A stretch of 64,000 nt of DNA from Candidatus Saccharimonadota bacterium (GTDB lineage Bacteria > Patescibacteriota > Saccharimonadia > Saccharimonadales > Saccharimonadaceae), in the NCBI GenBank assembly GCA_017437945.1, contig JAFRWP010000005.1, positions 124,001-188,000 of the forward strand. The letters run 5' to 3'. Position numbers and translations under genes: made by a program. Below are positions 11,549-58,940 of this stretch, piece after piece. The stretch's first letter is position 1, and every line of letters begins with the position of its first letter. Below the pieces are notes generated by a model. It was not told the origin of the DNA and ran no database searches. It was given only the letters and a program-made list of their open reading frames with translations.

Positions 11549-12769
11549 TTAGGACAGAGAGTGGTCGAGATAACGGACGGAGCCAAATGGGATTTTAGTC
11601 TTAACATGATCGGTGCCGCAAGAATCGGCGGCATGAATGGTGCGAGCACCAAAACGGAGATTGATGTGGTCGCTGGCGAGGCAAAGACTTTCGCGGCGGT
11701 CGTCGGCGGTATGCCAAAAACTTGGCTGCGGGTCAGGTGAATCTTGTAGTTTATAGAGAGTAACGCCAATAATGCGGGCGGGTGATGGTAGCTCGGCGAA
11801 TAGCTTCATGGCGATGCGGCAAATATCGGCATCGGTATTAAAAGCGGACTTTTCAATAAGGCTTTTATGATAGTAGACATCGTCATAACCGTAAACCCAG
11901 ACAAAGGCACCACGAGCGTAGAGGCTTTTGCTGCGGAGACGGTAGCCAACATCTTCGGCGAGATGAAAAATACGTGCGGCGGTTTCTTGACGAGTGAGAT
12001 TGCGGCTCTCCATGACATATTGGCGGCCGACTGATTTGATGCCGTAATCGACATCATCGACTTCGATGCCGCGAAGACGTTGATACCATTTGTGGCCATC
12101 GATGCTTTTGCAGACGAGCTTAACGAGGGTTTCTTCATCGGCGTCTAAGAATTGGAGTGGCGTAAAAATACTGACGGCGTTGAGGCGTTTCTCCATGCGG
12201 ACATTAATGCCGGGCAGGTCGGTGAGCTTGAGTGTGGCGAAGATGGCGCGCTGGTTTTCGGGCGTGATTTCATCCAGACCGTCTGGCTTGTGTAGTTCCC
12301 CGGCGAGTTTTGCGAGGAAGCGATTGCTGGCAATGCCAACATTGCAGCGCATCCAGTCGCCGACTTCATTGAGGAGGCGGTCTTTGATTTCACGGCCAAT
12401 TTCGTAGCGGTCACGGGTGCGCAAATGCTCGGGCGCCTGTTTGAGATCAATGATGCCTTCATCGATGGACTTCATGACGACGCGGGCGGAATAATCCTGC
12501 ATAATGCTGCGGAGTTTTTCGTGCACAAAGATATATTTGCTGGGCTCAGTCTCGGCGAAAATAATATCTGGACAGATAGCCTCAGCCTCACGGCGGCGCA
12601 TGCCAACTTTGACGCCGCGCCATTTGGCCTCGTAGCTGGCAGCAATAATGCAAGCGTTGGGCGTGATGCGGTTGGTAATAGCGACGGGGCGGCCACGAAG
12701 CATGGGGCGAGCTTGTTGCTCGATGGTGGCGAAACAGGAATTGAGATCGATAAATAGCGTGTCATTCAT
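11549..12769 (-). CDS. Y-family DNA polymerase (DinB/UmuC superfamily)
   Basis: 406 residues. Translesion polymerases insert nucleotides opposite damaged bases. The palm motifs are visible: LFIDLNSCFATIE near the start, SYEAKWRGVKVGM, and SIDEGIIDL (usual SIDEAFLD) with the catalytic Asp-Glu pair. A helix-hairpin-helix follows (LPGINVRMEKRL), then a little-finger domain. I see no clear clamp-binding motif at the C-terminus. It overlaps the preceding small gene by 8 bases, so the two are translationally coupled. DinB, UvrX and UmuC subgroups cannot be separated by eye. Confidence 0.93.
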   Translation of the reverse strand: MNDTLFIDLNSCFATIEQQARPMLRGRPVAITNRITPNACIIAASYEAKWRGVKVGMRRREAEAICPDIIFAETEPSKYIFVHEKLRSIMQDYSARVVMKSIDEGIIDLKQAPEHLRTRDRYEIGREIKDRLLNEVGDWMRCNVGIASNRFLAKLAGELHKPDGLDEITPENQRAIFATLKLTDLPGINVRMEKRLNAVSIFTPLQFLDADEETLVKLVCKSIDGHKWYQRLRGIEVDDVDYGIKSVGRQYVMESRNLTRQETAARIFHLAEDVGYRLRSKSLYARGAFVWVYGYDDVYYHKSLIEKSAFNTDADICRIAMKLFAELPSPARIIGVTLYKLQDSPDPQPSFWHTADDRRESLCLASDHINLRFGARTIHAADSCGTDHVKTKIPFGSVRYLDHSLS

Positions 12770-16185: not shown

Positions 16186-19100
16186 TTAATCTTCGGCGAT
16201 CAATTGATCATAGAAGGCTTTAGTTGGGTTGCTGCTAGCTTTGGCGGCTTCGGTGTCTGGTAGGTCGAGCGCCTTGATGTGGCGGAAGACGACTTGGATG
16301 AGATGCTTAATTTCGGCGGCCTCAGCGTCTTTGAAATCTAATTTGAGCGAGACGATTTCGTCGTCTTCGTCTGGCGAAATGTAGTCAATACGTCCACTCG
16401 TGACGCGATAGTTTTGATACTCTTTGGAGTTTTCGAGCAAGAATTTATAGAAATAAAGCTGGAGTTTGTAGCCAAAGGTGCCGTCGTTGTTGCCCCATTT
16501 ACGCTTCGGGCGGCTAGTTTTAAAGTCGGAGACGGTGATGGTCTTGTGTTCTTCGTCGATTTCGACGCGATCAATTTTGCCGGTCAGGACAGCGTCGCCA
16601 AGCGTGATAGTTTCGGTGAAGAAGCCGCGTTCGGATTCGGCGTTGACGCTGCGGATAAGGTCGCCGCGCTCGGCGAGGAATTTGCCGAGTTCTTTTTCGG
16701 CGCGTTTTTTGAGGTCGCTCTTCTCTTTTTCGTCGGCGTCGGCGGTATCGATTTTGGACATAAAGCGAGTGAGCGCTTCTTCGTTGGTAATATTCTCTTT
16801 ATTAATTTCGTCCATGATTTCGTGGACATAGCGGCCGTAATTCATGGCAAAGTTGGTCTCAGTCGGCACGCCGATAATGTAATACTTGAGGAAATCAAGT
16901 GGGCCTTCGCCGTATTGCAAATCAAGGAAAGTGTTAAGGTGTGTTGGTGAGAGACGATAATGCTCAACGTATGGTTTGAGCTGGTTTTTGCGCGTTTCAT
17001 CGTCTGGCACGAAGGCGTCGAACCATTTATCTGGCGCGATTTCGGACGGCTCAATTTCGGTGGCGCGACTGACGATGACTTTGGCGTATTTTTCCGGTAG
17101 GACTTTACTAATGACCGAGCCATCATCTTCTTCGTGCTCGTCGAGAAATTTGAGACGATCGGCGGTGTGACCGGCGAAATCGGAAAGACTATAAGTAAGA
17201 TAAAGTTTGGCACGAGCGCGCGTGATGGCGACAAAGAAGACACGGATTTTTTCGTCGGCCGAGTCGCCGGTATGGCGGACGTGTTCGAGGTTGCGCGGGA
17301 GAGTGATTTTGTCGGTATTGCCTTTGGCGTCGCTCCAGTTTTTGTTGTCGCAGGCAATTAAGAAGACGTGGTCGTATTCGAGGCCTTTAGCGGAGTGGAC
17401 GGTTTCAAGTTGGATGGCGGCATCGGATTCGTGGTATGGCGATTTGTTTAGAATGGTCATCTCGGCGGCATTGTAGGCATTAACCATGTTGCAGAAATCG
17501 GCAAGGTAGAGCTTTTTGCCGGCATGGCCGGATTTGGCGGATAACATATCGCGCAGCGTGTTGAGGTTACTGAACAGGTCGTAATTATCGGAATCGCCAA
17601 AGAGTTTGGCGGTGAGATTATTGATGATATACTCGGCGGAATATGATTGCGTTTTAACGGCGAGATCGGCGTAGAATTCGGCGACGACTTTACATTTCTC
17701 TTCTTCACTATCGAGCAGTTCTTTGAAGATGCTATGGTGCGCCGTGCGGGCCTGTTGAATTAGCGTGATGATTTCGGCGGCGGAAATATTCCAGCAAGGC
17801 GTCGTAAGCGCTTCGAGCCAATATGGATCGGCGGCTTTGTCGTTTTCGGCGAGCGCCAAAATGAGGTCGCAGGCATTAAAGAGATGAATGATTTCGGGTG
17901 TCTCGAGGATGTTTTCGCGACGGGTGTAGGAAATCGGGACGTCGAGGCTGTGTAGATACGGCAAAATTGAGACTAGGTATTTGTGTTTTGGTGCAATAAC
18001 GGCAATTTTGTTGCCCGGTACGCCATCGTCGAGGAGCTGGCGGATTTTTTGCGCGACGTACGAATATTCTTCTTGATAGGCTGGGAATTCGCGTAGTTCA
18101 ATGGCAGTATCGTCGGGCGGGTTTTCGGCGGTGATAGTCTTGTCGATGTTGACGTTCGGGGCTTTACAGAAGCGATCGAGTGCTTGCTCGATGACGCTGT
18201 GCGAAAAGTCCAAAATTGGCGCACTGGAGCGATAGTTTTTGGTGAGGAAAATATGCGTCGGGTGATATTTATTATCGAAGTCGAAGAAGTTCGAAGTATT
18301 GGCACCTTGGAAGCCGTAGATGGCCTGGTCGTCATCGCCGACGGCCATGATATTCGGCTTGCCCTCGTTACTCGGATTATCAGTCAGGAGGCTAACGAGT
18401 TGAGCCTGAGCGTCGTTAGTGTCCTGGAACTCGTCGAGCAGAATATACTGGAAGCGCTCTTGTGCATTAAAGCGCTTTTCGTCGTCATTCTTTAGTAGGT
18501 CGATGGCGTTTAGGATCATATCATCGTAATCGAAGAGGCCGGCGAGTTTGAGGCGGGCGGCGTAGATTTCCATGATGTTAGCGAGGCTGAGTAGCTTCTT
18601 GTTGGCGATATTATCGCCCAAAACATATCTGTTAGCGGTGTCTTTCTTGAAATATTTGTCGCGCCATTTGCCCGGTAGTTTGGCGGATGGCTTTTCGGAG
18701 TTTTCTTCGGCGAGTAATGCTTCGGCTAGCGCGCGGTAATAAATTTTGGCGATTGGTTCAACTTTGCCGACGATGTAATCTTTGGCGCTTGGCGCAGTAA
18801 CAAAGGTTTCGAGTGATTTAAGAATGCGGCCGTAGACTTCGGCGGATTTTGGATAACGCAAACCTTTGGTGGCTTGAATGTCGGACTCGATGGCGGTGTA
18901 AATTTTTGCGTTGTCAATTTGGTTGCGCTCGACAATTTTGCGAATATCTTCTGGGCTGAGCGCGGCGGCTTTCAGGTCGGAAATCGCGGATATTATATCA
19001 CCAGCGTAATATTCTGGACGTAAAATATCAGTCGGATCGAGAGTTTCTTGAATCTCGCGAATCATCGTAAAACGATCGAGTTCGTCGATAGCGGCGGTCA

Positions 19101-57337: not shown

Positions 57338-57437
57338 ACTGATTATTTTACCATTTTTAAAGATAGAGTACGATGTTTTTAGTAAAAATATTGAACTCGT
57401 GCTTTTTTGTTTTGGGATTATTCGTAAAATTGGTGGA

Positions 57438-58940
57438 ATGAAACAATTATTTAGCATGATTTTAGGTTCGATTCTGCTTGCGACTTTGCACCCGGTGGAA
57501 GGTAGCGATAATTTTCTGGAGACCGATGATCCATCAGGTGGGGCGTGTGCGGAGGTACAATTTGTGTTTGCGCGTGGGTCGGGTGCAATGCGAAACGAGA
57601 GCGGCGAATGGCAGGCGTTTCGTGATGCAATGAGCGCACTTGCGGCGCGGCGTCGGTATAGTTTTGCGGTGACGGATTTGGACTATCCGGCCGTGTCGGT
57701 GACAAATCCCATCACGAATGCGCTGGGCGCGTACGTTTCGGCTGGTCAGTATTATAAATTTGGTCAGAGCGTCTGAAGTGGCGTGTCGGCTCTGCGGGAT
57801 TATTACGACGAGGTAGTTTCTAGTTGTCCGGACAGCCTGTGGGTGCTGGCGGGCTACTCGCAGGGGGCGATGGTGGTGGCGGAGGCAGTAAAAAGTTTTT
57901 GGCACGAGCAAGTGGTATATGTGGCGCTGTTTGGCGATCCAAAATTATATCTGCCGGAGGGTTCCGGTTTGCTTCCGGATGCCTGTCTAGGGCGAAATTA
58001 TTCAACATATCGCGTGTATGTGCCGTCCTGTCGGACGCACGAAGGCAGCTTGAAGGCGCGTAGCCCGTACGTTTATGGAGAACTGGTTGGCAAATATGGT
58101 TTGTGGTGTAATGCTGAGGATTATATTTGCGGGAGTGCCCTGCTGCCCTGGAAAAATGGCGGACACATGAAGTATTCCGAGCGGATGGCGCAGCTGGTTG
58201 GGATTTTGCGCGGGAAATTATTGGGCGGTTCGGGGGCGAGCGTAGTGCGCACGCGGAGCACATATTCCGGAGTTTATGCTTTGCTCACGCAGGATACATA
58301 CTATGCGCGACCGGATGAGGAGGTAGTGATTGATGCTTCGGCGAGCTTTGGGCTTGATGTTGATATAGCTAGCTATGAGTGGAGCGTGGATGGCGGTGAG
58401 TATATGGCGGGTGCGGCAACGCTGATGCGAGGTTTTGATGCTGGCGAGCACAGCGTAACGGTAAAAGTGACGGATATGCTGGATAGCAGCTCGGAATATA
58501 CAAGTAAGGTTATTGTCGCTAATGAGGAGGATGCTTTGGTTTTACCGGCGCCGACGGATGTAGTAGCGCGAAAAGTCGACGACGGCGTGGTGTTGGATTG
58601 GAGTGAGGCTGAGCCGGCGGCGCCGTACCTGTGGGTGCGATTGAATGGTTTTGATTTAGACTATGCGCCAGCCGATCAAAAATTACTCACGATCACGGAT
58701 GTAGATTTTGATGAGGATGTTGTTATTGAAGTGGCATGGCTATCCGAAGAGGCGGCGAGCGAGTGGCGCGAAGTGGGTTGGGCGGAGGAAGATGAAATAT
58801 CGGAGCTGGTTAGCGAGCCGGTTGAAGCTGCCGAGGCGTCACTGGCGCCAAATACGGAAGTGACCGTCATGGACGGTGTGCTTCCCTGTCTGATTCTATT
58901 GATGTGCCTCGTGGTGATTCGGTGGATTTGCTGGAAATAA
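57438..58940 (+). pseudogene. Cutinase-like exported hydrolase interrupted by an in-frame TGA
   Basis: A single reading frame of 501 codons with one TGA at codon 113 (57774-57776). The first part has a signal peptide (MKQLFSMILGSILLATL) and the oxyanion motif ARGSGA. After the TGA the same frame continues with the cutinase nucleophile GYSQGA, an Asp segment (NAEDYICGS) and a His segment (GGHMKYSER), then a PKD-like domain (about 290-360) and a C-terminal membrane helix. Relatives (cutinase/Culp) are typical of Actinobacteria, the usual hosts of Saccharibacteria. It may be a pseudogene, a sequencing error or stop readthrough; a restart at GTG 57783 lacks a ribosome binding site and would have no signal peptide. 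Confidence 0.7.

Follow-up and report, generated by a model that had tools for sequence, protein, structure and literature searches.

The in-frame TGA of a cutinase-like gene in the window (the whole analysed stretch of 64,000 nucleotides) probably belongs to a genus-specific competence regulon, in which UGA would be decoded as tryptophan by readthrough, gating DNA uptake as well as a cutinase-like esterase anchored in the membrane. The window TGA exemplifies a pattern that extends over the regulon and is invisible from a single locus.

Translation of positions 57438-58940 (plus strand) gave 112 aa, a single TGA at codon 113 (57774-57776), a further 387 aa, and a TAA (500 aa when read through the TGA), and the frame was otherwise undamaged, as described in the first-pass annotation. 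The peptide across the codon 113 junction of the read-through protein would be FGQSVWSGVSALR. An N-terminal hydrophobic segment resembling a signal peptide (57438-57506, end approximate) is followed by a cutinase domain (PF01083, residues 36-250, 57543-58187), which was identified by profile and by fold match to solved cutinases. The read-through protein scored 64.4 bits against this profile (cut-off 25.9), and the match runs across the stop, with E-values of 1.6e-17 for the read-through protein and 3.7e-13 when only the portion downstream of the TGA is taken. The structure model was of moderate confidence (mean pLDDT 69); cutinases were its best matches in Foldseek (TMt about 0.7), and codon 113 was modelled in the middle of the helix preceding the nucleophile strand. 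The RGSG motif of the oxyanion-loop region (R46-G49, 57573-57584) lies upstream of the TGA and is conserved in 14 relatives, and Ser141, the nucleophile in GYSQG (57858-57860), as well as the catalytic candidates Asp228 (58119-58121) and His243 (58164-58166) lie downstream and are invariant across 14 sequences, so that the arrangement of motifs around the stop noted in the first pass was borne out. A stub terminating at the TGA would be without any catalytic residue. By profile, fold, and the GYSQG, Asp, and His motifs, the protein is of the cutinase type (CE5), and esterase activity is predicted. Downstream of the catalytic domain, a PKD-like domain was matched under the cut-off (residues 291-353, 58308-58496; above the cut-off in the relatives L232 and L238), and a C-terminal transmembrane helix was indicated by structure model and sequence (residues 478-499, 58869-58934). 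Because of the PKD-like domains and this helix, the protein is probably surface-anchored and not released, which amends the earlier description as an exported cutinase-like hydrolase, of which the cutinase domain and the signal-peptide-like N-terminus stand.

Cutinase orthologs from many species of the genus also carried TGA, mostly elsewhere in the gene, i.e., in the signal-peptide-like segment at Trp-like positions, in E-W-[KRQ]-x-F, in GDP-W-TNLPEG, and in EYQ-W-SVNGG; the TGA of the window gene is therefore more than a chance event. At the column of the window TGA itself, orthologs had T/S/N/R/K/A, with W in 2 of 28, and tryptophan at this particular codon is weakly supported. In the comparison with sister genomes suggested in the first pass, TGA recurred in orthologs; the two nearest orthologs of full length, L232 and L233, were stop-free with K/R at the codon 113 column, and the cutinase of genome G027 (L002/L231) had one in-frame TAG (AGR-TAG-YEFG) where the near-identical L232 has Tyr. 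This TAG was the sole stop other than TGA within the bodies of the studied genes. The cutinase matches were Saccharibacteria genomes, many of ruminant or horse gut, and the genus comprises herbivore-gut bacteria, probably living attached to others. The presumed actinobacterial epibiont of the first-pass annotation accordingly holds for a lineage of the Saccharibacteria epibiont type, while Actinobacteria are likely hosts by analogy with the system described in excerpts of PMC10633639. Actinobacterial relatives of the cutinase, L277 (Microbacterium) and L278 (Rothia aeria), shared about 32% identity with it, and exchange of the gene with host Actinobacteria is possible.

Surveying the window genome along with two relatives singled out competence genes; the surveys of TGA-containing genes rest on frame-restricted and profile searches (six-frame homology searches were too noisy). 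The genomes are metagenome-assembled, and those used for comparison were read in part. Across the genus, 93 in-frame TGA codons were counted in profile-aligned regions (ComM 15, ComEC 14, DprA 20, ComFC 44), and neither TAA nor TAG occurred inside the profile-aligned regions of these four genes. In-frame TGA was present in comFC of 34 of the 38 genomes of the genus, and a single comEC contained up to 5. Profile searches in 24 other genera found comM, comEC, and dprA free of in-frame TGA, and a comFC search covering 295 genomes of the order placed every TGA among the matches listed in this genus. Within the genus, internal TGA was found neither in RF2/RF1 nor in the PilB/PilT ATPases or the Val/Ile/Leu-tRNA synthetases, and almost none was detected in non-family genes. 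The window genome carried in-frame TGA also in a secreted lamin-tail (LTD) protein. A CdiA_C-type nuclease-like protein of the window genome (contig C5, minus strand, about 17650-18097) may carry one as well, and a sortase of G019 has one. A locus with a SpaA-like surface protein and a sortase was seen in G019 (C1, minus strand, about 424335-426517) and in the window genome (C8, minus strand, 134407); the SpaA-like gene has the regulon box described below upstream in both genomes and in-frame TGA in G019. The comM gene of the window genome contains a TGA plus a small frameshift (about C8 12,160-12,240, near 12,220), which may reflect assembly error, decay, or frameshifting, and the species might be losing the competence pathway, since this frameshift is present besides the TGA.

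The evidence says that UGA in the regulon genes is read as tryptophan, as judged from alignments of five families. Trp occurred in another sequence at 27 of 51 TGA columns compared to 5.3% of other columns (P 2.7e-21, only approximate due to shared ancestry of the sequences), and the mean Trp frequency was 13% at TGA columns vs 0.64% elsewhere; an example is VDDV-TGA-TTGSS, with W in other sequences. The five families combined contained 139 TGA, a few of which may sit just ahead of the true start, and 419 TGG. TGA positions differed from species to species, and some were common to diverged species. Past the first TGA, dN/dS was 0.04-0.28 in close pairs, which points to strong purifying selection on the downstream frames, and close pairs had 22 TGA in common with 1 TGA/TGG difference. 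Conserved in-frame stops followed by a frame under selection, the pattern by which programmed readthrough is recognised, were thus found at the sequence level. TGA columns lay towards the start of the gene, 24/53 of them in its first fifth vs 24/107 TGG columns (P 0.006). A skew to A/C at position +4 was strong when counted per sequence but not significant per column (75% vs 64%, P 0.2), and RNA structure downstream of TGA did not differ from that at TGG sites. As a side observation, T directly before TGA was scarce (9/53 columns vs 48/107 for TGG, P 0.0005). Among the readings offered in the first-pass annotation, readthrough is supported by the occurrence of TGA without TAA or TAG in four competence genes, by the Trp columns, and by the purifying selection downstream. 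A recent knockout does not fit TGA recurring at Trp columns across species under such selection, and a base-call error is at odds with TGA recurring in the cutinase orthologs and four competence genes of many species. None of the findings points to phase variation, the remaining reading.

The TGA-containing genes share a putative promoter element. Upstream of the window gene, the box CTCGTGCTT (57396-57404, plus strand; consensus CTYRHGCTT) is located 42 nt and a -10-like TAAAAT (57425-57430, plus strand) 7 nt ahead of the ATG. The box was present upstream of all six TGA genes, at 41-44 nt for cutinase, LTD, comM, comEC, and dprA and at 58 nt for comFC, and the -10-like element usually lies 6-7 nt ahead of the ATG, which suggests leaderless or near-leaderless transcripts. 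At a distance of 41-44 nt, the box occurred in 5/6 TGA genes vs 3/792 other called genes of the window genome (topA, radA, and one more; Fisher 1.3e-10). As the box was derived from the TGA genes, its presence there is not independent evidence, and the unsupervised genome scan is the fairer test: using box and spacing alone, the scan returned, as genes common to at least two genomes, only cutinase, LTD, comM, comEC, dprA, and topA. Of 52 com loci outside the genus, 3 had the box. By this shared element the TGA genes are assigned to a competence regulon, and their co-expression is predicted. Box and leaderless spacing without TGA were seen for topA (window genome C11, minus strand, 119056), radA (C13, plus strand, 12271), and an exonuclease-like gene (G021 C7, plus strand, 206072).

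RF2 was intact in nearly all members of the genus, and neither an RF2 paralog nor a prfB frameshift was seen. TGA terminated 89 of 789 genes. In the genomes checked, tRNA-Trp had the CCA anticodon only, its D-arm and its anticodon stem of 5 bp were unremarkable, and no tRNA-Trp with a UCA anticodon or other alteration was detected. Because RF2 is intact, UGA ends ordinary genes, and only tRNA-Trp(CCA) was found, the reading of UGA as tryptophan is not a genome-wide code change; and since no other tRNA-Trp was found, competition of tRNA-Trp(CCA) with RF2 is the likeliest decoder. Two further candidates were discarded: a TTCA pattern match in G033, considered as a special tRNA, was not a tRNA, and a selenoprotein was rejected on the grounds that the TGA columns are of Trp type and ARAGORN finds no UCA tRNA.

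Under the proposed readthrough, transcripts of the regulon would start from the shared box, mostly at the start codon itself, and UGA in these messages would be read as Trp by the near-cognate tRNA-Trp(CCA) competing with RF2. Full-length ComEC, ComFC, DprA, ComM, lamin-tail surface protein, and cutinase-like esterase would then be made only when UGA termination is weak, e.g., in stressed or growth-arrested cells. The window gene would yield a 112-residue stub without catalytic residues in the OFF state and, in the ON state, a membrane-anchored esterase beside the DNA-uptake machine, whose substrates may include lipid- or ester-bearing material in the walls of hosts or prey. Lytic enzymes occur in other competence regulons; by analogy, neighbouring cells whose envelopes bear lipids or esters may be opened by the esterase, and a cutinase-like enzyme tied to competence perhaps frees DNA or breaches neighbouring walls. 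Counted against readthrough are the window TGA column with little Trp, the stop-free closest orthologs L232/L233, the +4 skew that is not significant per column, and the comM frameshift of the window genome; searches for a special tRNA, a release-factor paralog, or downstream RNA structure found none, a weak point of the model where several UGAs per message must be read efficiently. More tentatively, the genetic code might be conditional, with UGA meaning Trp in competence and stop in growth and UGA placement serving as a regulon-wide translational lock, a possibility to which we lean less than to readthrough as such. If the proposed readthrough is right, a regulon would be governed by stop-codon reading in place of or atop transcription, providing a testable logic for the timing of DNA uptake by ultrasmall epibionts. 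On this reading, gene callers split or discard the competence genes of this genus, and its species may hence be mis-scored as non-competent.

Readthrough was weighed against several other explanations. Nearly neutral tolerance, in which UGA is constantly leaky and rarely or sparsely needed genes gather TGG-to-TGA changes by drift, without any regulation, would account for the confinement of TGA to genes that growth probably does not require (Tn-seq of S. epibionticum found comEC, comF, and dprA dispensable according to excerpts of PMC10633639) and for 139 TGA vs 419 TGG at positions that vary among species; we consider it rather unlikely, given the common promoter box, up to 5 TGA in one comEC, the concentration of TGA in the first fifth of genes (P 0.006), and the near absence of TGA found outside these genes. 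Several UGAs per message and the leaderless layout common to most TGA genes would be expected from a dedicated condition-specific recoding factor (an RF2 inhibitor, a tRNA modification, or ribosomes specialised for leaderless messages) that renders UGA fully sense during competence, but no candidate was found, topA and radA have the box and no TGA, and such a factor is doubtful.

The remaining explanations fared worse. A-to-I editing of the mRNA from UGA to UGI, read as UGG, would likewise give Trp and would turn the lone TAG of G027 into UGG too; however, TAG is otherwise missing though equally convertible to UGG, and L232 has Tyr at the G027 site, and editing is considered improbable. Loss of competence and cutinase as pseudogenes would be in line with the comM frameshift in the window genome, the TAG in the G027 cutinase, and the absence of a stop in L232/L233, yet it is very hard to reconcile with stops that are TGA only, at Trp columns, with a dN/dS of 0.04-0.28, and with TGA common to diverged species. 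Genetic code 4, with UGA as Trp throughout the genome, would explain the Trp reading in regulon genes but was rejected and is given almost no credence, as RF2 is kept intact, tRNA-Trp(UCA) was not found, UGA ends ordinary genes, and the aminoacyl-tRNA synthetases and PilB/PilT are without TGA.

No precedent for UGA read as Trp within a single regulon was found in the open-access literature, and the readthrough proposed here is compared to its nearest counterparts below. E. coli and B. subtilis both leak UGA as Trp, with about 6% readthrough in B. subtilis and 19-54% in prfB mutants (excerpts of PMC7918605); there as here, RF2 is present and tRNA-Trp(CCA) presumably does the reading of UGA as Trp, but the leak there is general and low-level, whereas the conserved UGAs here are limited to one regulon. 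Many prokaryotic genes have conserved in-frame stops under selection, with dN/dS 0.66-0.82 (PMC7918605). Interrupted genes are under purifying selection in both cases; all stops in scattered genes are involved there, and TGA only, in one pathway of one genus with a common promoter, here. Genome-wide UGA = Trp (code 4) includes a tRNA-Trp with a 4-bp anticodon stem (PMC13092985); UGA is Trp in both, whereas UGA termination persists here alongside RF2, and the stem has 5 bp. Natural transformation is known from Saccharibacteria, with comEC required for it in S. epibionticum (excerpts of PMC10633639); ComEC, ComF, and DprA are present there and here, and in-frame stops, present here, are not mentioned in those excerpts and were absent from these genes in the other Saccharibacteria genera searched. 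With CE5 cutinases (PF01083; Fusarium solani cutinase 1cus), the window protein shares the fold and the Ser-Asp-His motifs, to which it adds PKD-like domains, a membrane anchor, and a UGA interrupting its frame.
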